A stretch of DNA of 37,901 nucleotides from Deltaproteobacteria bacterium. Its GTDB lineage: Bacteria > Myxococcota_A > Polyangia > Polyangiales > Houyiibacteriaceae. Shown piece by piece: positions 11,283-20,208 of this stretch. Numbering within the stretch: the first letter of the stretch is position 1; each line of letters starts with the position of its first letter. The notes below the pieces were generated by a model. That model had not been told where the DNA came from. It ran no database searches and saw only the letters and a list, made by a program, of their open reading frames with translations. The stretch spans positions 1 to 37,901 of the forward strand of contig JAFDAJ010000009.1 in the NCBI GenBank assembly GCA_019313915.1, read 5' to 3'. Both the position numbers and the translations under genes were made by a program.

Positions 11283-11519
11283 GTGGAACTATGGTTGCTC
11301 GCGCTTTGGGCTCTTTCGGGCGCCGCGCTTCTGTTCACGCACCTCTTGATGGCTTGGCGCGTGCTTGCAGGGCCGTTGGGTGCGCAGTGGCGCTACCTCG
11401 GTTTCCTAGTGCCGGTATTTACTCCGATCGTCGCGTGGCGCGGGGGCAACCGCCTTGGTCCGATCACCTGGGTTCTGTTCCTGGTAATCTATCTGTCCGC
11501 GCGCATGGCCGAGGTCTAA
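11283..11519 (+). CDS. Small two- to three-helix membrane protein
   Basis: A 78-aa hydrophobic protein starting with GTG. Helices at about residues 2-26 (LWLLALWALSGAALLFTHLLMAW), 35-52 and 58-75. No family recognised. Its stop overlaps the prmA ATG by one base (TAATG), so it is the first gene of a unit with prmA and rsmE. Similar small membrane proteins are found in myxobacteria, but a link to methylation is not evident from sequence. Confidence 0.6.
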   Translation: MELWLLALWALSGAALLFTHLLMAWRVLAGPLGAQWRYLGFLVPVFTPIVAWRGGNRLGPITWVLFLVIYLSARMAEV

Positions 11520-12379
11520 TGTCCGACCCGGTGCATCATCCATTCGTGTCCATCCGGGTGCGGCCCGCGCGACTCGAGCTCGCGCAACTGAGGCTTTGGG
11601 AGCTCGGGGCGTCGGGTCTCGAAGAGCGCGACGAGACCACGCTCGTCTGCGAGGCAGCGTCTGATCAAGTCGTACTGATTGGGGCGTTTTCCGACGAAGC
11701 TGCGGCGCGGCACGCGCTCAAAGAGATCGGCGAGGAGTACGACGCAGAAATCATCTACGTTCCGAGCCAAGACTGGGCCACCGAATGGCGCCGTGGCTTC
11801 AGCGCACAGCGAATCGGAAAGCGCCTCTTGTTGCATCCTTCCTGGGAAGCGGTGCAGGGCGAGCCCGATGATGTCGTGCTGACGATCGATCCGGAGAACG
11901 CGTTTGGAAGCGGCGATCACGAAACGACCCGACTCGTATTGCGGTTGCTCGACCAATGGGTTGCGGGCGGCGAACGTGTGCTGGACGTCGGATGCGGCAG
12001 TGGAGTGCTCTCGATTGCCGCGTTACGCCTCGGTGCGGCGTCTGCCATTGCGGTCGACATCGATGAGGACGCTGTGGTCGTCGCGCGCCGAAATGCCGAA
12101 ATCAATGGCGTAGCGGAGCGTATCGAGGCCTCTGCTCGCCCATTGCAAGATATCGATGGCGCCTACGACATCGTCCTCGCCAATATCGAAACCAGAGTCC
12201 TAGTCCACATGCCCGAACCGCTCCAAGGGCGCCTCGCGGCAGGTGGCATTCTGATCTTGAGCGGCATTCTTCGCGCAGAGACGGATGAGCTCCTCGCCGC
12301 TTACGCTCCGATGCGCCTCGAAGAATGCGTCGAGGAAGGGGAGTGGTGCGCCTGTCTACTGAGGCCGGCCGAGCCATGA
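11519..12379 (+). CDS. prmA: Ribosomal protein L11 methyltransferase
   Basis: PrmA trimethylates ribosomal protein L11 using S-adenosylmethionine; 286 aa, close to the usual 290. Start ATG overlaps the preceding stop (TAATG); the longer open frame upstream reads through another gene and is rejected. An N-terminal L11-recognition domain (residues 1-60) leads to WATEWRRGFSAQRIGKRLLLHPSW near 84, the substrate/linker signature, DPENAFGSGDHETTRL near 125, the SAM-binding motif I VLDVGCGSGVLSIAA near 157, and NIE in the position of the catalytic NI[LE] motif. ATGA overlap couples it to rsmE. Confidence 0.95.
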   Translation: MSDPVHHPFVSIRVRPARLELAQLRLWELGASGLEERDETTLVCEAASDQVVLIGAFSDEAAARHALKEIGEEYDAEIIYVPSQDWATEWRRGFSAQRIGKRLLLHPSWEAVQGEPDDVVLTIDPENAFGSGDHETTRLVLRLLDQWVAGGERVLDVGCGSGVLSIAALRLGAASAIAVDIDEDAVVVARRNAEINGVAERIEASARPLQDIDGAYDIVLANIETRVLVHMPEPLQGRLAAGGILILSGILRAETDELLAAYAPMRLEECVEEGEWCACLLRPAEP

Positions 12380-13095
12380 CGGTTCGAAGGCTTTACGTGC
12401 CTGATCTGCCCGAGACGGGCGGGGCGGTGACCCTTGCAGAGGGGCCGAGCCGCCATGTTCGCGTGCTCCGTCTTCGCGCGGGCGATGAGGTCGTGCTCTT
12501 CGATGGCAAGGGCCGCGCCGCGCCGGCCCAACTCCAGTCCATCGGTGACCAGGTCGTTTGCCAAGCAGAGCCGCCTAAGCTCGCCGAGCCGCGGCGGACC
12601 CGTGTCGTGTTGATGCTAGCCGTTCCCAAGGGCTCAAAGCTCGACGATTGCGTGCGCATGGCCACTGAGCTCGGCGTCGATGAAGTGGCGTTGATGCACA
12701 CCGAGCGAACGGTCCCCCGTTGGGACGCGGGTCGAGAGCGGTCGCGCATCGATCGACTGACGAGGATCGCCAGCGAAGCGGCCGCCCAATGCGAGCGAAA
12801 CGACGTCCCCCTCGTCCATGGCCCCCAGTCTTGCTCGGCCTGGGTGGAGGCGATGCCCGAGGACGCGGCAGGGGTGGTGTTCTGGGCGCGCGCGCAAGGG
12901 GCCCTAGCGCTCGACGGCACCCCTGAACAAGTATGGTGTGCCATAGGCCCCGAGGGGGGCTTCACCGACGTCGAGGTCGCGCTATTCGAACGAGCGGGTT
13001 TTGGGGTGGCGAGCCTCGGAACACAGGTCCTTCGCGTGGAGACGGCCGTGCCCGCGGCGCTGGCCATCGTGCGGGACCGGCTCGAGCTGCTTTGA
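12376..13095 (+). CDS. rsmE: 16S rRNA m3U1498 methyltransferase
   Basis: RsmE is a SPOUT-class (knotted) methyltransferase that methylates U1498 in the decoding region of 16S rRNA; 239 aa. The start at 12376 (MTVRRLYVPDL) overlaps the prmA stop as ATGA. An N-terminal PUA-like domain (HVRVLRLRAGDEVVLFDGKG, residues 28-47) is followed by the SPOUT domain: ATELGVDEVALMHTERTVPRW near 96, SEAAAQCERNDVP, then the SAM-binding knot IGPEGGFTDVEVALF near 195 and LGTQVLRVETAVPAAL near 215. prmA-rsmE adjacency is common in proteobacteria. Confidence 0.95.
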   Translation: MTVRRLYVPDLPETGGAVTLAEGPSRHVRVLRLRAGDEVVLFDGKGRAAPAQLQSIGDQVVCQAEPPKLAEPRRTRVVLMLAVPKGSKLDDCVRMATELGVDEVALMHTERTVPRWDAGRERSRIDRLTRIASEAAAQCERNDVPLVHGPQSCSAWVEAMPEDAAGVVFWARAQGALALDGTPEQVWCAIGPEGGFTDVEVALFERAGFGVASLGTQVLRVETAVPAALAIVRDRLELL

Positions 13096-13143
13096 CAAGC
13101 TCGTTGACACGTCGACGGAACCACAGTCACCATTGCATCGATC

Positions 13144-15135
13144 ATGTCGGTTCTCGCCTCCCTTCTGGTCCGTGACCAGGTGATCCCTGTGGATCGCGTC
13201 CAGCAAGCGATCCAGGAGCAAGTCATGCGTGGTGGCAATCTCGACACCGTGCTCCTCGAGCTCGAGAGCTTGCGCGAGAACGAGATGAACGCGTATTGCG
13301 CGGCTGTATATGGTCTGCTGCCGGCGACGCGCGATGAAGTGATGCGGACGCCGATCAGCACGGTCCGCGTATTGCCCCGAGAGTTCGCCGTTCGGCATCG
13401 CTTGATTCCCGTGGCGCGGACAGAAGATGCCGTCGTGCTTGCCGTCGACCGCCCTCTGCCGGAAGCGACCCTTCGCGAGATCTCGTTCGAGCTGGGGATC
13501 GACCCCGTGCAACGCATCGTCTGCTCGGTGCGCGTCGAGGCCGGGTTGGCTCGCCACTATGACATCGAGATGACCGCCAGGATGCGTCACCTCAACGGCC
13601 GGCTGGAGGCCACGGACGCCGGCTCGATTCCCTACGTCGCGCCGTTCGAAGGTGTCGGCAAACGGAGCTCGCTCCCGCCGAAGAAGGACATCTCCGGCTC
13701 CTATCCACGCGTCGACTCGTCGATCCCCGCGCCGGTGGCGATGGCCGATACGGAGCCTCCGCCGGCAGTGCTGCCCCAAATCGGCTCTTCCGTTCCCGCG
13801 GGCACGTTTCGCGACTCCGACCCAGCGACACCTCGGCGCAAGCGGTCAGAGCCCCAATCGGGCTTCGTCGACGCGACCCGATATAGCCTTCCTCCGCGCC
13901 CGCCGGAGGTCCTAGGGAGGCCATCAGCGCGGTCGAACGCTTCACGGTTGCCTGCGCCGAGCGGCCGGTCGGGACCGCCCACGCGACCCGACTCGGCATC
14001 GAGCTGGCAACCCGCACCCGGTCCGCCTACGACCCGTCGCAGACGCTCCGTTCCTCCGGACGCGAGACGGGACAACGATGGAAGCGCGATGACCCACGAC
14101 GTCGTGTCCCTGGGTCCGAACTCGCCGGTCTCCGCGCCACCGAACGCGGGTAGCGAACCTGCTGGGCGAAGGTGGAACCCCGCACCTCCGCCGATCGTGT
14201 CCGAGGGCTCGCTCCCGAGTGTCATCATCGACGTCGGCGATGACGTCGAACAGCTGGTCGCAACGCTCCGCGAAGCAGGCCCCGAGGACGAAATGCTCAT
14301 CCTTCCCTTGTTGGGGGTCGGCGAGGCCGCGCTGCCGGCGTTGGCTCGCGAGTTTCCGGGCAATCTGTGGTTCGATCGCAACGAGCCCCATGCGCGCATC
14401 CCCGCGGGCAGGGACGTGTCACCGGTTGCGCGGACGTTCGTCGCCTTCGGGCAGCGCTCGGTTCCGTACCTGATTCAGCTCCTCGACGACGAGGACCCCG
14501 ACACGCGTTACTACGCCACCGTCCTTGCAGCGGAGTTCGTGCATCCCGATCTCGTTCAGCCAGTCGGCCGCCGTTTGTTCGATTCGGATCCCGGCATTCG
14601 TAGCGGCGCCTACCGCGCATTGAGCGTCCTCTATGCGTGCGAGGTCGAGTTCATGCAGCTAATCGAACGCCTTCGAGCCTCAGCACGCGATGGCAGGAGG
14701 CTCGAGCCTCAGGCGACCTCAATCGAAGCGCTCGGGAGGCTCCGTGACGCGGATTCGTTCGAATTCTTCGTCTCGTTGCTCGAAAACCCCGAGGACGTGG
14801 TGGTACGCGCCGCCCACGCGAGCTTGGTGCGCTTGAGTTGCCAAGACTTCGGGACGCACAAGAAGAAGTGGACGGCGTGGTTCGACAAGCACAGCAGCCA
14901 GCATCGGGTCGAATGGCTGATCGTCGGGCTCATGCATTCGGACGAGCGGCTTCGACGGCGCGCCAGCGACGAGCTCAAGCACCTCACCCAGGAATACTTC
15001 GGCTACGAACCCGGGCTCCCGAAGAAAGCCCGCGAGGCCGCACAGCAAAAGTACAGGCTTTGGTGGCAGCGGGTCGGTTTTCGAATGTTCGTCCAAGCCG
15101 AGTCCAGCGGCTCTGGTCATGCGCACCGCCAGTGA
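13144..15135 (+). CDS. GspE N-terminal-like domain fused to HEAT repeats
   Basis: Protein of 663 aa. Residues 1-145 match the N-terminal domain of type II secretion/type IV pilus ATPases (T2SSE_N/MshEN-like): LASLLVRDQVIPVDRVQQAIQEQ, then PREFAVRHRLIPVARTEDAVVLAVDRP. There is no ATPase domain. Residues 165-355 are Pro/Ser/Arg-rich and probably disordered. Residues 365-650 form HEAT-like helical repeats (VARTFVAFGQRSVPYLIQLLDDEDPDTRYYATVLAAEF). MshEN domains can bind cyclic di-GMP in other proteins; whether this one does is unknown. The HEAT part is clearly related to the gene at 18143-19153. Likely a cytoplasmic signalling or scaffold protein. Confidence 0.78.
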   Translation: MSVLASLLVRDQVIPVDRVQQAIQEQVMRGGNLDTVLLELESLRENEMNAYCAAVYGLLPATRDEVMRTPISTVRVLPREFAVRHRLIPVARTEDAVVLAVDRPLPEATLREISFELGIDPVQRIVCSVRVEAGLARHYDIEMTARMRHLNGRLEATDAGSIPYVAPFEGVGKRSSLPPKKDISGSYPRVDSSIPAPVAMADTEPPPAVLPQIGSSVPAGTFRDSDPATPRRKRSEPQSGFVDATRYSLPPRPPEVLGRPSARSNASRLPAPSGRSGPPTRPDSASSWQPAPGPPTTRRRRSVPPDARRDNDGSAMTHDVVSLGPNSPVSAPPNAGSEPAGRRWNPAPPPIVSEGSLPSVIIDVGDDVEQLVATLREAGPEDEMLILPLLGVGEAALPALAREFPGNLWFDRNEPHARIPAGRDVSPVARTFVAFGQRSVPYLIQLLDDEDPDTRYYATVLAAEFVHPDLVQPVGRRLFDSDPGIRSGAYRALSVLYACEVEFMQLIERLRASARDGRRLEPQATSIEALGRLRDADSFEFFVSLLENPEDVVVRAAHASLVRLSCQDFGTHKKKWTAWFDKHSSQHRVEWLIVGLMHSDERLRRRASDELKHLTQEYFGYEPGLPKKAREAAQQKYRLWWQRVGFRMFVQAESSGSGHAHRQ

Positions 15136-15171
15136 TAGACTTCGGCCTCGTCGAATCAGCGAGATCGAAAC

Positions 15172-17553
15172 GTGCGAATCCCGAGGCTTCTGACAATACT
15201 GGGTCCTGCGTCCGTTCTTTACGTTCTGGCGGCACGGGCCTCTTCGAACACCGCGCCGTCGCCGGAGTGGCTCGTGGCGCTGCTGTCACTGGTGCTCGCC
15301 CTGACCCCGCTCGCCGTGTTGGGGGCGAGCCCGGCTAGGCGCGGCGCTTCTAGGCTAGCGCTCATGGGGGTGAGCCTAGCGGTTGCGGTGGCCTCGGCGC
15401 GCACCGCCTCGCCTTTCCTCGACCACGCCCATGACTTTGCCTGGCTGGTCGTGGCGCTCCTGATGTTCGACCTCGCTCTGCCGCGTGACTCGAGGACGCT
15501 GGTTCGATACGGCGCTCTAGGAGCGTTTGCCTCGGCGGCGCTCCTGGGCGCCGCGTTGGCCGAACAGGGTTTGCTCCCCGCGCCGACGTTTGGCGTGGTG
15601 GTGGTAGGGGGCATCCTCGGGACCGGCGCGCTTCATCAGATCGTGCTCGTCGGAAGAGGCCATGTCGTCGAAGGTGCGCTGTCCGGCGTCGCGCTCGTGA
15701 GCCTTGCCGTCGGGTTGGCATACTCGTGGTTCGGTCCGTTTGGTGGTTTGTTGGCGACAGCGGTGGAGTTCGCGGTCGCGTCCTTGCTTTGGCTCGGACA
15801 TCTTGCGTGGATCGATCCGCGATGGCGGTCGTTGCGGCGCGTTGGCGTGCCGGCAGTCGTGGCATGCGCGGTGTGCTTCGTGGCGACCGTCGCACTCGTG
15901 CCAGACGCTCCTTTGCAAGGATGGCAACTGGGTACGCTCGCCATCGGGTCGGGCGTTCTTTGGTGGGTGACGTTCTCGTTAGCACGAAGACTCTCGAGCC
16001 GCGCGGTCTGGAGCACGGCGGGGCGACTCGCGGACGGCGCCCAAGCTGCGAGGCACAACTTGGTCGGTGGCGCCATACTAGAGGACCTTGCTTCGGCGGT
16101 TCTCGTTCCCTTGACCAGCACGCTCGGCGACGTCAACGGCCTGCCTGAGCTCTACACATTGGAGCCGCCCCTTCGGATCCGTTTGGATGTCGGTGACCGG
16201 GCGAATATCAAATCGGCGGACGCCCCCGCCGCCATCACTCGGGTCCTTTTTTCTGACGAACACCATGGCATTCTCGATCTCGCGAGCCTTCGTGCCCGGG
16301 TCGTTCGCGAGCCTTCGGTTCGGGAGGCCGTGGACACGATGGAGCGCCGGGCGATCGGCGGTGTGCTCCCCTGCGTGCATCTCGATCACATCGAGGGGCT
16401 ACTGTTTCTGCCCTTGCTCGGAAGGTCGGAGGCGCTCTCACGCGGCGAGCTCGAGCAGCTCGGCCGCTTGGGGGATTCGCTCGGAGGCGCGCTCGCGTCA
16501 GCGCTCGCGCGACGCCGGGCGGACACGCACATTCATCAACTGTCCGCGTCGAGGCGCCACGCCGAAGACCGGATCGCTACGCTCGAAGGAGAGCTCGAGC
16601 AGCTCCGAGGTCAGTGCGACGTCCTCGGGCGCGGGCTCGCTGAAAATCAAACCCTGCACGTTGCGTACAGCCAATCGATGAGACGGGTTCAGACCCGAGC
16701 GATCGAGCTTGCTTCGGTGACCGACCCTGTGTTGCTCGTCGCACCCGCGGGCTCTCCCGTGTTGCCGGTGTCCCGCTTCATTCACGATCGCGGGCCACGG
16801 TGGGAAGCCCCTTTCATCGTCGCCGATTGCTCCGCGGCGCCCCCCGACCAAGTCATCAGTCTGCTCTTCGGCTCGGAGAACGAGCGCCGCACCGGTTGGT
16901 TTCAATCGGCCATCGGTGGGACGTTGCTCTTGCGTGACTTGCCTGCCCTGTCGAAACCCGCTCAGACTCGGCTAGCGGCAGCGTTGAACGCACGAGCGGG
17001 TGCCGACGATGGTCCCCGGCCCCTTCAGCCCCGAATCATAGCGACGTCCCGTGCCCCGTTGAGCGAGCTGCGACGACGCGGCGCTCTGGACCCCGACCTT
17101 GCGGGTTGTTTCTACCAGCCTGGTCTGACGATTCCGCCGTTGCGCGATCGACGGGAAGATGTGCCCTCACTTGCGCTGCTCGCAATCGACCGGGCGTGCC
17201 GACTGTTGGCACGCGAACCCATAGGGATCGAGCAGCAAGCCATGGAGGCCCTCGTCGATCACGATTGGCCTGGCGACGTTGCCGAGCTCGAGCTGATGAT
17301 CGAGCTTGCTGTTGCAGAGGCGTCCACCAAGGCGATCGCCCTGCGCAACCTTCCCTCGCTCGCATGGCCGGCTGCCGACGAAGGGGAAGCGTTGAGCGGG
17401 ACCTACCTCGAGGTGGAGCGCCGCCTGCTCGAACGGGCTCTCCTTCGATCCGGGGGCAACAAGAGCGAGGCCGCGCGGATGCTAGGGCTGAAGCGCACCA
17501 CGTTCCTCGACAAGCTCCGGCGCCACGGCTTGGAACAACGCGCGGTGGGCTGA
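15172..17553 (+). CDS. Membrane-anchored regulator with degenerate sigma-54-activator domain and Fis-type HTH
   Basis: Protein of 793 aa, GTG start. Domains in order: about eight membrane helices (residues 10-270); a GAF-like region (305-450) containing VLPCVHLDHIEGLLFLPLLG; a short coiled coil (455-490); an AAA-like region (515-735) laid out like NtrC-family activators; and a C-terminal Fis-type helix-turn-helix (752-786, SGGNKSEAARMLGLKRTTFLDKLRRHGL). The AAA part has lost the P-loop (APAGSPV at 524-530) and the sigma-54-contacting GAFTGA loop (GSENERRTGWFQ at 567-578), while keeping GGTLLLRDLPAL and PPLRDRREDVPSL. It therefore probably cannot hydrolyse ATP or remodel sigma-54. Likely a membrane signal-responsive DNA-binding protein. 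Confidence 0.8.
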   Translation: MRIPRLLTILGPASVLYVLAARASSNTAPSPEWLVALLSLVLALTPLAVLGASPARRGASRLALMGVSLAVAVASARTASPFLDHAHDFAWLVVALLMFDLALPRDSRTLVRYGALGAFASAALLGAALAEQGLLPAPTFGVVVVGGILGTGALHQIVLVGRGHVVEGALSGVALVSLAVGLAYSWFGPFGGLLATAVEFAVASLLWLGHLAWIDPRWRSLRRVGVPAVVACAVCFVATVALVPDAPLQGWQLGTLAIGSGVLWWVTFSLARRLSSRAVWSTAGRLADGAQAARHNLVGGAILEDLASAVLVPLTSTLGDVNGLPELYTLEPPLRIRLDVGDRANIKSADAPAAITRVLFSDEHHGILDLASLRARVVREPSVREAVDTMERRAIGGVLPCVHLDHIEGLLFLPLLGRSEALSRGELEQLGRLGDSLGGALASALARRRADTHIHQLSASRRHAEDRIATLEGELEQLRGQCDVLGRGLAENQTLHVAYSQSMRRVQTRAIELASVTDPVLLVAPAGSPVLPVSRFIHDRGPRWEAPFIVADCSAAPPDQVISLLFGSENERRTGWFQSAIGGTLLLRDLPALSKPAQTRLAAALNARAGADDGPRPLQPRIIATSRAPLSELRRRGALDPDLAGCFYQPGLTIPPLRDRREDVPSLALLAIDRACRLLAREPIGIEQQAMEALVDHDWPGDVAELELMIELAVAEASTKAIALRNLPSLAWPAADEGEALSGTYLEVERRLLERALLRSGGNKSEAARMLGLKRTTFLDKLRRHGLEQRAVG

Positions 17554-17557
17554 AGAC

Positions 17558-18142
17558 ATGCGTTCGATCGTGCTTTGGGACGTCATGGGCACCCTCGTGC
17601 ACGATCCCTTCTTCGTCGAGATGCCGGAGTTCTTCGGAACGACGTTCGACGCGATGTTCGAGGCAAAGCATCCGAGCGCATGGATGGAATTTGAGCTCGG
17701 GCAGCGCTCCGAAGAAGATTTCCTGGAGAGCTTCTTTGCCGACGGCCGCGACTTCGATCGACGCGGTTTTGTTCGCACCGTCCGCTCGTCCTATCGGTGG
17801 CTACCGGGCATCGAGGAGCTTCTCGCGGAGCTCGGCGAGGCCGGCTGCACCATGCACGCGTTCTCGAACTATCCGGTCTGGTACCGGCTCATCGAAGAAC
17901 GCTTGAAGCTGTCACGGTTTCTCGATTGGACGTTCGTCTCCTGCATCACCGGACTGAGGAAACCGGACCCGGCGGCCTACACCCACGTCTTGAGCAAGCT
18001 CCGCGTTCCGGCCGAGCGGTGCGTCTTCGTCGACGATCGCAACAGTAACTGTGAAGCCGCGCGGCAGTGCGGGATTCGTTCCCTGCGATTTGACGGGGTC
18101 GGCCCCCTGCGCGCTTCGTTGCGCGACGCGGGGGTGTTGTAG
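17558..18142 (+). CDS. HAD-superfamily hydrolase with altered motif I
   Basis: Protein of 194 aa, HAD subfamily I fold. Motif I is WDVMGTL (residues 7-13): the nucleophile Asp8 is present but the second Asp of DxD is Met. Motif II lies in HAFSNYP (Ser/Asn), motif III in TGLRKPDP (Lys), motif IV in CVFVDDRNSN. The DVMGTLV-DPF opening is shared with an uncharacterised HAD family in cyanobacteria and plants. Without the second Asp, ordinary phosphomonoesterase activity is doubtful. The start is 4 nt after the preceding regulator's stop, so they are likely co-transcribed; the stop abuts the convergent HEAT gene directly. Confidence 0.82.
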   Translation: MRSIVLWDVMGTLVHDPFFVEMPEFFGTTFDAMFEAKHPSAWMEFELGQRSEEDFLESFFADGRDFDRRGFVRTVRSSYRWLPGIEELLAELGEAGCTMHAFSNYPVWYRLIEERLKLSRFLDWTFVSCITGLRKPDPAAYTHVLSKLRVPAERCVFVDDRNSNCEAARQCGIRSLRFDGVGPLRASLRDAGVL

Positions 18143-19153
18143 CTACTCCACGTGGCTCTTCGTCCACCAGCGTTCGTAGTTCCGCTGGATAGCAAGGAAC
18201 TCATCGCGCGTGGCCGTCTCCGACATTGGCTGCACAAAGCGGGTCAGGTGCCAGAGTTCGCGCGACGCCAATAGGCGGATGTTGGCGCGACTGTCTCCGA
18301 GGCCTTCGATGAGCCATTGAATCCGGGTCTCTTGGCCTCGCTCCGATAGCCAGCGGAGCCAAGGATCGCGAGAAAACCCGAAATCGTGCGCGGTGAGAAC
18401 CCTGAGACCCACCCGGCACGCAGTCGCGATGCCGCGGTCGGGGTCGGCTAGCAAGTCCACGAACAGCGGCGCTGACGACTCGTCTCGCAACTGGGTTAGC
18501 GCCGAGATCGCGCGGCGCCTCACCGGGAGCAGCAGAGCGATGTCGGATGCGCATCGGCGGAGCTCAGCCAGCGCGCTTCGGTACACGGGCTCGTGTTGGT
18601 ACGCGCTCAGGAGGTGAAGCGCGACGCGGCGACACTCCCGATCATCGTCGAGCGAGAGCTGCATGAGCGGTTCGATGACCCCGGAGTTCACGTATGCGCC
18701 GCAAATGACGGCGGCGTAGTAGCGGACGGTTGGACTCGAGTGACGCATCAGACGCGCGAGGTAGGGAACCGCCTCGCCTTCGAACGTAGCGAGCGCAGCC
18801 GCGCTGGCAGAGATCTCCTCCGGACGCGGGAGGCGTGAGTCTGTAGCGAGGGAAGGGCGCCACAGCGGCCCAGGGAAGCTCCTGGCGATCTCTTCGAGCG
18901 CGAAGTTGCCGAGCGCGAGCAGCCGCCTCACGACGGGCGCGATCTCCTCCGGGCCGAGCGTGACGAGTTGCTCGACGAGGGACCGGGCTTGCTCTGTCGG
19001 AGTCTCGAATGGCCTGTCATGGGTGCGCGAGCTTTCCTCGGCCGACGCAGGCACCCTTGCACGGACGCGGGACCCGTTGTCCTCAGCGTCGTCGTACGCC
19101 CCCTCCGGAAGGACACCCGCCGGGAGCGAGTGCTTTCGCCGTTGCCCAACCAT
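18143..19153 (-). CDS. HEAT-repeat protein, paralogue of the gene at 13144-15135
   Basis: Protein of 336 aa made of HEAT-like helical pairs from about residue 55 to 320 after a charged N-terminus. It matches the C-terminal half of the GspE_N-HEAT protein 3 kb away: LALGNFALEEIARSFPGPLW pairs with LGVGEAALPALAREFPGNLW, VPYLARLMRHSSPTVRYYAA with VPYLIQLLDDEDPDTRYYAT, and IQWLIEGLGDSRANIRLLAS with VEWLIVGLMHSDERLRRRAS. So the two share ancestry and perhaps a partner. It lacks the GspE-like domain. A TGGTATAAG extended -10 lies 6 nt before its ATG. Molecular function unknown. Confidence 0.8.
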   Translation of the reverse strand: MVGQRRKHSLPAGVLPEGAYDDAEDNGSRVRARVPASAEESSRTHDRPFETPTEQARSLVEQLVTLGPEEIAPVVRRLLALGNFALEEIARSFPGPLWRPSLATDSRLPRPEEISASAAALATFEGEAVPYLARLMRHSSPTVRYYAAVICGAYVNSGVIEPLMQLSLDDDRECRRVALHLLSAYQHEPVYRSALAELRRCASDIALLLPVRRRAISALTQLRDESSAPLFVDLLADPDRGIATACRVGLRVLTAHDFGFSRDPWLRWLSERGQETRIQWLIEGLGDSRANIRLLASRELWHLTRFVQPMSETATRDEFLAIQRNYERWWTKSHVE

Positions 19154-19159
19154 CGACCA

Positions 19160-19168
19160 CTTATACCA
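19160..19168 (-). promoter_or_regulatory. Extended -10 promoter for the HEAT-repeat gene, likely leaderless
   Basis: On the minus strand TGGTATAAG (19168-19160) is a strong extended -10 (TGnTATAAT-like). It ends 6 nt before the ATG at 19153, so the transcript would start at the start codon. No -35 box is visible, which extended -10 promoters tolerate, and no Shine-Dalgarno precedes the gene. Confidence 0.4.
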
Positions 19169-19233
19169 GGATAGGGGCGTTTTTGGCGTGACTGGCTAGT
19201 CGCGGCCTATTTTTGCGGGCAAACTGCGCGCCC

Positions 19234-20208
19234 ATGTACAGGATGGTAGTGCGCGAGCTCGGAGGGCCGAGCTCTCTGGAACGCCAGGAGCTCGATGCGG
19301 TCCCCGCCGGTCCGGGAGAGGTCGTCATCGACGTCCATGCCATTGGGTGCAATTTCTTCGATATCCTAATCACGCAGGGCAAGTACCAGGTCCGCCCCGA
19401 GCTCCCGTTTGCGCCCGGCGCGGAGATTGCAGGCACGGTTCGCGAGGTCGGCAAAGGGGTCGAGCGCTTTTCCGCGGGCGACCGCGTGAGCGCGTTGTTG
19501 GCGTACGGCGGCTTCGCCTCGACCGTCGCCGCACCGGTTGAGCGCGTGTTCGCCATGCCTCCGCAGATGACATTCGAGGAAGCCGCTGCGCTGGGCCTCG
19601 TCTATCAGACGTCCTACGTCGGCCTCGTGCACCGCGCTCACTTGCGAGCGGGGGAGACTCTCTTGGTGCACGCCGCAGCTGGCGGCGTTGGCCTTGCGGC
19701 CGTTCAGATCGGCGCGGCGTTGGGTGCGCGGGTCATAGGCACGGCGGGCTCTTCCGACAAGCTCGAGCTCGTGAAGAAAAACGGGGCGGATGTCGTCATC
19801 AACTACCGCGACGAGGATTGGGTCGAACGCGTCAAGGAATTAACCGATGGGCGCGGCGCCGACGTCATCTACGATCCCGTGGGAGGCGATACGTTCGACC
19901 TTTCGACGAAGTGCATTGCATTCGAAGGGCGAATTCTCATCATCGGGTTTGCCAGCGGGCGCATTCCATCCGCGAAGATGAGTCGCGTGCTGGTGAAGAA
20001 CTTCTCGTTGGTCGGGCTCCATTGGGGCCTGTACTTCGAGAAGAATACGCAGGTTCTTCAGGACGCACAGGACGCGATCTTGGGGCTGTATGCCGCCGGC
20101 AAGATCGCGCCCGTGGTGTCGGCGACGTATCCGCTGCTGGACGCCAAGGTCGCGCTAGACGCTCTCGGCGCCCGCAAAACCAAAGGAAAGGTCGTCCTGA
20201 TTCCCTAA
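19234..20208 (+). CDS. Zinc-independent medium-chain reductase (NADPH:quinone oxidoreductase-like)
   Basis: Protein of 324 aa. N-terminal GroES-like domain (residues 1-115) with GCNFFDILITQGKYQ and PFAPGAEIAGTVREVG, then a Rossmann NAD(P)H domain with the VHAAAGGVGLAAVQIGAALGA motif near 145 and the GADVIYDPVGGDTFD segment near 210. Cysteine ligands for catalytic zinc are absent, placing it with quinone oxidoreductases, crotonyl reductase-like and enoyl reductases of the MDR superfamily. Start chosen at ATG 19234; an ATG at 19243 and a TTG at 19213 are alternatives. Its stop overlaps the convergent CbiX-like stop by 3-4 nt. Substrate not determinable. Confidence 0.85.
   Translation: MYRMVVRELGGPSSLERQELDAVPAGPGEVVIDVHAIGCNFFDILITQGKYQVRPELPFAPGAEIAGTVREVGKGVERFSAGDRVSALLAYGGFASTVAAPVERVFAMPPQMTFEEAAALGLVYQTSYVGLVHRAHLRAGETLLVHAAAGGVGLAAVQIGAALGARVIGTAGSSDKLELVKKNGADVVINYRDEDWVERVKELTDGRGADVIYDPVGGDTFDLSTKCIAFEGRILIIGFASGRIPSAKMSRVLVKNFSLVGLHWGLYFEKNTQVLQDAQDAILGLYAAGKIAPVVSATYPLLDAKVALDALGARKTKGKVVLIP

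Follow-up and report, generated by a model that had tools for sequence, protein, structure and literature searches.

The DNA analyzed here (the window) is a stretch of 37,901 nucleotides that makes up the whole of contig C203 (JAFDAJ010000009.1) in the 4.41-Mb, 448-contig genome (G000; GenBank assembly GCA_019313915.1) of a deltaproteobacterium placed in the Polyangiales (Myxococcota_A; Houyiibacteriaceae). Four of its genes are considered: one for a protein that joins an MshEN domain to HEAT repeats through a long linker (MshEN-HEAT below), one for a degenerate, membrane-anchored regulator of the NtrC type, one for a HAD-family hydrolase, and one for a stand-alone HEAT protein. The first two may constitute an undescribed signaling pair, which is the main subject of this work. 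The features of the locus are as follows.

11291 to 13095, plus strand: prmA (ribosomal protein L11 methyltransferase) and rsmE (16S rRNA methyltransferase), a housekeeping pair that adjoins MshEN-HEAT in many families
13104 to 13133, plus strand: putative promoter-like element TTGACA-18-CACCAT, 10 bases 5' of the MshEN-HEAT start codon
13144 to 15135, plus strand: MshEN-linker-HEAT protein of 663 amino acids (aa) (open reading frame [ORF], Pfam, AlphaFold2, structural alignment)
13144 to 13608, plus strand: MshEN domain (residues 1 to 155) of the GspE/PilB N-terminal type with degenerate cyclic di-GMP (c-di-GMP) motifs (Pfam, motif alignment)
14236 to 15093, plus strand: HEAT domain homologous to the product of 18143 to 19153 (Pfam, BLASTP, AlphaFold2)
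15172 to 17553, plus strand: membrane-anchored degenerate NtrC-type regulator, 793 aa (Pfam, structure model, motif alignment)
17558 to 18142, plus strand: HAD-family hydrolase, 194 aa, motif DVMGT, the second Asp of DxDxT being replaced by Met (Pfam, alignment)
18143 to 19153, minus strand: 336-aa stand-alone HEAT protein whose gene converges on the HAD gene (ORF, Pfam, BLASTP, tree)
19240 to 20208, plus strand: quinone-oxidoreductase-like (QOR) gene, divergent from the stand-alone HEAT gene (Pfam, neighborhood comparison)

MshEN-HEAT, the regulator, and the HAD gene follow one another on one strand with gaps of 36 bp and 4 bp, the HAD and stand-alone HEAT stops are 0 bp apart, and 86 bp separate the stand-alone HEAT gene from the divergent QOR gene. 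This is the arrangement that a first-pass annotation had read from the ORFs, with the regulator and HAD genes between two HEAT genes and one HEAT gene facing the others. At seven loci measured in the window's genus, the gaps were 48 to 57 bp from rsmE to MshEN-HEAT, 19 to 49 bp from there to the regulator, and −4 to 4 bp from the regulator to the HAD gene, and the divergent stand-alone HEAT/QOR spacing was 86 to 87 bp. The TTGACA hexamer, located immediately before the MshEN-HEAT start, is invariant in 11/11 aligned genus sequences, and a CAnCAT-like box 18 bp further on is conserved. The short gaps and this conserved element suggest that MshEN-HEAT, the regulator, and the HAD gene have a three-gene transcript of their own, which is possibly nearly leaderless. 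An operator search in the gap between the stand-alone HEAT and QOR genes (19153 to 19240) showed conserved blocks in genus members (TTATACCAG, TAGTC, and GTTTT..GCAAACT) and no clear palindrome.

In the 663-aa protein, Pfam recognized MshEN (PF05157; E = 5.4e-10, 39.6 bits versus a cut-off of 23.1) and HEAT_2 (E = 3.5e-14). AlphaFold2, run with 41 homologues, predicted an MshEN fold at residues 1 to 170 (predicted local distance difference test [pLDDT] score of about 90), a disordered linker at 178 to 362 (under 50), and a helical HEAT solenoid at 365 to 650 (about 95). The best structural match of the MshEN part was MshE with c-di-GMP (5htl; Z = 12.9, root mean square deviation 4.1, 137 residues aligned), followed by Xanthomonas citri PilB bound to PilZ (7lkm; Z = 12.6, 14% identity). 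By sequence profile, the closest natural solved chain among those listed was Myxococcus xanthus PilB (3jc8_Ba, E = 1.6e-24). The protein thus has the two-subdomain fold of Vibrio cholerae MshE, M. xanthus PilB, Thermus thermophilus PilF, and X. citri PilB, but unlike these known MshEN proteins it lacks the ATPase, carries a HEAT solenoid, and has a degenerate c-di-GMP motif: Pfam found no C-terminal T2SSE ATPase domain in it, and HEAT repeats occupy that place. The published list of MshEN partners consulted here includes REC, HD-GYP, CheA, CheX, cyclase, and Ser/Thr kinase domains but not HEAT; the source counts 22 MshEN genes in M. xanthus alone (PMC5013675). A combination of MshEN with HEAT repeats was not found in the literature searched, most subscription journals lying outside its scope. 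Two more MshEN proteins are encoded in the window genome, in frames of 405 aa (G000:C42, L121) and 689 aa (G000:C233, L122). The genome also encodes an MshEN protein that we take, from its sequence and length rather than a family search, to be PilB-like, together with a PilM match, on contig C174. A second PilM/GspL-like protein is encoded on contig C392.

The kinship with PilB raises the possibility of a decoy, in which MshEN-HEAT would compete with PilB or GspE for PilM or GspL and so throttle pilus assembly, the regulator being uninvolved. Such a role would suit both the M. xanthus PilB match and the presence of PilM in the genome, but it would make the long linker and the HEAT part unnecessary, and no pilus or secretion genes were seen among the neighbors examined; we regard it as quite unlikely. 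A scaffold in cell division or polarity comparable to PomY of M. xanthus appears highly improbable. PomY, from the same phylum, combines HEAT repeats with disordered regions (PMC13170346), as the window protein does, but it has no MshEN domain, and the MshEN-HEAT model shows neither the coiled coil at the N terminus nor the winged helix at the C terminus of PomY. The likeness to alphaRep and to PBS-lyase-type HEAT repeat proteins is one of repeat class, as these have neither MshEN nor GAF.

MshEN domains are usually taken to be c-di-GMP receptors. The binding domains are defined by two 24-residue motifs, RLGxx...LxxxLxxQ (Wang et al. 2016, PMC5013675). We aligned 41 of the 47 MshEN-HEAT proteins extracted, omitting the near-duplicate or redundant rows L007, L009, L011, L032, L050, and L061, and set the motif register manually, with the Gln and the hydrophobic pairs as anchors. 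With this register, the first Arg is retained in 0/41 homologues in motif I and 2/41 in motif II, the first Gly in 0/41 in both, the second Gly in 2/41 and 16/41, and the Gln in 38/41 and 2/41, respectively. The window MshEN domain keeps 3 of the 14 key positions versus 10 of 14 in the PilB-like protein of the same genome, and it scored 18.9 bits with the NCBIfam c-di-GMP motif model NF053729, below the cut-off of 38. Since Thermus PilF GSPII-B binds c-di-GMP tightly without the Arg (PMC11731258), loss of the Arg alone is not decisive. That precedent, the motif I Gln, the Pfam score above cut-off, and 14 GGDEF matches in the genome would fit a sensor module in which MshEN binds c-di-GMP and the HEAT part relays the signal. 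Against this, both first glycines are missing from all 41 proteins and the motif II Gln from 39, and comparable changes at several motif positions of XpsE abolish binding (PMC5013675). We therefore consider the window MshEN domain, in which the canonical site is absent, a poor candidate for c-di-GMP binding and the sensor module very unlikely. The first-pass annotation held that GspE N-terminal domains without an ATPase sense nucleotides or proteins; as the motif is degenerate in 41/41, the nucleotide half of that idea is weakened, while protein docking stands as a possibility.

Among 66 frames with MshEN and HEAT, 51 contain an extra domain of ~160 residues in the linker, and the 15 that lack it are exactly all the MshEN-HEAT frames of the window's genus in the set. 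The domain came close to Pfam GAF_2 in L041 (E = 2.3e-6, 28.3 bits against a cut-off of 28.6) and matched it in L048 at E = 7e-4; five of seven members tested had no GAF match, and the nearest solved chain, 3oov, was a weak hit (E = 0.062). We call this domain GAF-like; judged from these profiles, the genus has lost it, and the window protein is a shortened form. As the domain occurs in every MshEN-HEAT protein examined outside the genus, the wider architecture is MshEN-GAF-HEAT. Transfer of this GAF-like domain to the regulator was rejected, since its profile matched no regulator frame.

The regulator begins with about eight to ten hydrophobic segments (membrane helices, residues 3 to 278), after which the model places a GAF-like domain (285 to 418), a coiled coil (424 to 492), an AAA+ fold (501 to 731), and a Fis-type helix-turn-helix (HTH; 745 to 784). 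Pfam reported Sigma54_activ_2, AAA_lid_14, and HTH_8, and Foldseek matches were mainly to NtrC-type AAA+ domains, with NtrX at E = 8.5e-15. Residues 275 to 423 alone gave no Pfam match, and this alpha/beta domain is termed GAF-like solely from the order of its elements in the AlphaFold model. In an alignment of 18 orthologues, 11 from the genus and 7 from outside it, Walker A (GxxGxGK), the DE of Walker B, and GAFTGA were each found in none. The L033 regulator has GEPGTGL, a clear ancestral trace with Leu replacing Lys. The HTH is retained in 17/18, the L043 copy being divergent. One orthologue (L062:5404-7947, minus strand) lacks the HTH and retains the membrane, GAF-like, and AAA-like parts. 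RpoN is present in the genome. NtrC-type proteins that lack GAFTGA use sigma70 promoters, and ATP is not required by V. cholerae VpsR (PMC10274813). The window regulator resembles VpsR and the NtrC proteins of Rhodobacter and Caulobacter in joining an NtrC-type AAA+ fold without GAFTGA to an HTH, but it differs from them in being membrane embedded, in having a GAF-like domain in place of the receiver, and in the additional loss of Walker A and B. Among the locus proteins, the anti-phage defense library PADLOC gave only generic AAA-HTH (RtcR-type) and HEAT-ARM matches; its RtcR_PspF2 model (CARF_AAA_HTH) hit the AAA-HTH part of the regulator at E = 3.4e-35, a match that is probably generic because the CARF domain is not covered. 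In the one-contig genome G099, the regulator appears to be split (C1, 206426-207460 and 2286591-2286932), one half lying beside MshEN-HEAT and the other beside the stand-alone HEAT gene, which points to an inversion or an assembly error.

We compared neighborhoods in an order set of 144 genomes, 19 from the window's genus and 125 from outside it, the near relatives being metagenome-assembled genomes. Matches to the stand-alone HEAT protein were found in 126/144 of these, and the HEAT search matched 63/187 genomes of the phylum. The neighborhood recurs in related genomes, the point on which the first-pass annotation had staked its proposal of a local module. The stand-alone HEAT gene and the regulator lie on the same contig within 10 kb in 16/19 genus genomes; in the three exceptions, the contig ends, the regulator is split, or a HEAT fragment is all that is present. 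Ten of the 15 genus loci have the order prmA-rsmE-MshEN-HEAT-regulator-HAD-HEAT(−)-QOR (QOR partial in L010), one (L003) is without HAD, and the other four, truncated at contig ends, are consistent as far as they extend. At L003, the HAD gene is missing between 5049 and 5066, between the regulator and the stand-alone HEAT gene, and the remaining order is intact.

Outside the genus, the regulator, scored at E ≤ 1e-50, is present in 30/125 genomes, and 13 of these 30, spread over six family codes, have a HEAT match within 10 kb of it. Hit positions for this count were entered by hand, and all 13 positives were then verified on fetched DNA, where the MshEN part was seen in 12; in the remaining pair (L116), the contig cuts the MshEN end and only the HEAT part is present. 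The MshEN-HEAT and regulator genes are immediate neighbors at L043, L059, L060, and L062 and lie a short distance apart at L033, L035, and L038. Two further genomes, G050 and G065, have a stand-alone HEAT gene less than 15 kb from the regulator, with HAD and QOR near. The stand-alone HEAT gene was seen beside the gene set in one family only. Thus, the constant element beyond the genus is the MshEN-HEAT/regulator pair and not a fixed four-gene unit, and the HAD and stand-alone HEAT genes are lineage-specific companions from the same old neighborhood in one family rather than core members. Of the four-gene signaling module first proposed, what stands is a conserved pair for which we found no description in the literature searched.

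The stand-alone HEAT protein (Pfam HEAT_2, E = 3.4e-13) is 33% identical to the 663-aa protein over 278 aa (BLASTP E = 2e-38), and all three motif pairs quoted for the two proteins in the first-pass annotation are aligned. The homology is confined to the HEAT part (residues 368 to 643 in the 663-aa protein); nothing in the short protein corresponds to the ~365 residues before it. Apart from its own gene, a whole-genome search with the 336-aa protein hit two places: the gene for the 663-aa protein (E = 1.6e-38) and another HEAT gene, the third in the genome, on contig C205 (E = 1.5e-34). We built a HEAT tree of 99 rows after excluding 15 duplicate or truncated loci and hits below 100 bits or 220 aa; it is midpoint rooted, its direction serving for drawing only. 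Thirty-nine stand-alone HEAT rows, in two subfamilies, fall on one starred branch (99/97). Five rows labeled as solo lie outside it (L034, L092, L094, L096, and L102); in these the MshEN model was unmatched in a long frame or the stretch was cut. The window protein groups, apart from the C205 type, with L027, L030, L064, L074, L075, L076, L077, and L080 (branch 100/98), all from other genera of the same family, and prmA, rsmE, QOR, or HAD is still nearby in five of these eight loci (L030, L074, L075, L076, and L077). On the basis of this grouping and of the block genes still near it, the stand-alone HEAT gene is read as an old paralogue retained in or near its ancestral block. A recent local tandem duplication was rejected, as the stand-alone HEAT proteins branch together, far from a genus-only pairing. 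In the HAD protein, DVMGT or DVMDT replaces DxDGT in 14/14 aligned sequences. With the usual assignment of roles to individual HAD motif residues, the acid/base Asp of the phosphatase-type DxD is Met throughout, and the nucleophile Asp, the Ser/Thr, the Lys, and the acidic pair are conserved in 14/14. The fuller motif, DVMGTLVxDPF or DVMDTLVRDPF, occurs in the window gene, L030, L077, and other HAD genes. The protein may be catalytically active, though as an atypical member of the HAD enzymes.

Our preferred reading, to which we give a probability of about 0.4, is that MshEN-HEAT is a scaffold or adaptor that is made together with the membrane-tethered regulator and links DNA binding to the state of the envelope or of a type IV pilus platform. 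The analysis shows the domain make-up, the lost catalytic and ligand motifs, the gene pairing, the predicted folds, and a likely operon; the docking partner, contact between the two proteins, and any transcriptional output are inferred. MshEN-HEAT would be cytoplasmic, and its PilB/GspE-type N-domain would dock on a protein partner instead of reading c-di-GMP. The X. citri PilB N-domain offers a parallel: like the window domain, it has the fold without the c-di-GMP motif, yet it binds PilZ, using the fold for protein contacts, and a PilB-PilM contact has been proposed from GspE-GspL/EpsE-EpsL crystal complexes (PMC8389850). It differs in being part of a pilus ATPase and shares 14% identity with the window model. 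Candidate docking partners would be PilM/GspL-like actin-fold proteins or a PilZ-domain protein. The flexible linker would present the HEAT solenoid, which would hold a second partner. The likeliest client is the regulator, because it is co-made and membrane embedded and has lost ATPase and sigma54 contact while keeping its HTH. The state of the envelope or pilus platform would thereby bear on DNA binding through the pair, without ATP hydrolysis, the regulator presumably acting at ordinary (sigma70-type) promoters.

Several points weigh against this proposal. The docking partner is guessed from homologues, a close MshEN-HEAT/regulator pair is absent in 17 of the 30 non-genus genomes, G001 has the regulator and no HEAT match at E ≤ 1e-10, and many genomes of family f12 have MshEN-HEAT with weak regulator matches or none. 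Furthermore, the shared order beside prmA-rsmE may be inherited synteny. In that case, an old housekeeping block (atpG-like, prmA, rsmE, QOR-like, and cbiX-like genes) would merely have kept together proteins with unrelated jobs, a somewhat unlikely alternative. It gains from the housekeeping nature of the flanking genes, from the separation of the pair in those 17 genomes, from the absence of HAD in L003, and from the other neighbors that MshEN-HEAT has in other families, which in f12 are mgtE (L046, L047, and L054), hemD (L048 and L050), recA (L053), and lspA (L056). Of the 39 clustered loci, 14 have prmA nearby and 13 have rsmE; a gene that we take by eye from its sequence to be ligA-like is near in L028, L029, L033, and L035. 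Synteny alone accounts less well for L060, where the pair is adjacent though prmA and rsmE are unmatched within the stretch examined, and for the conserved promoter-like element that MshEN-HEAT has of its own after rsmE in the genus.

A broader version of the adaptor proposal, which we regard as unlikely at present, would see a Myxococcota-wide MshEN-GAF-HEAT family, not found described in the literature searched, as ATP-free adaptors made from the docking domain of the pilus motor that work with a dead-AAA+ membrane transcription factor, giving a route from membrane to DNA without ATP hydrolysis or sigma54. Within it, the genus adaptor would have lost its GAF-like sensor, and only its membrane partner would still have a GAF-like fold. 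If the adaptor proposal is true, the regulator would be a further case of the NtrC activator fold serving as a plain DNA-binding protein, and automatic annotation would overstate c-di-GMP control in myxobacteria, which would hold an ATPase-free MshEN branch with its ligand motif erased.

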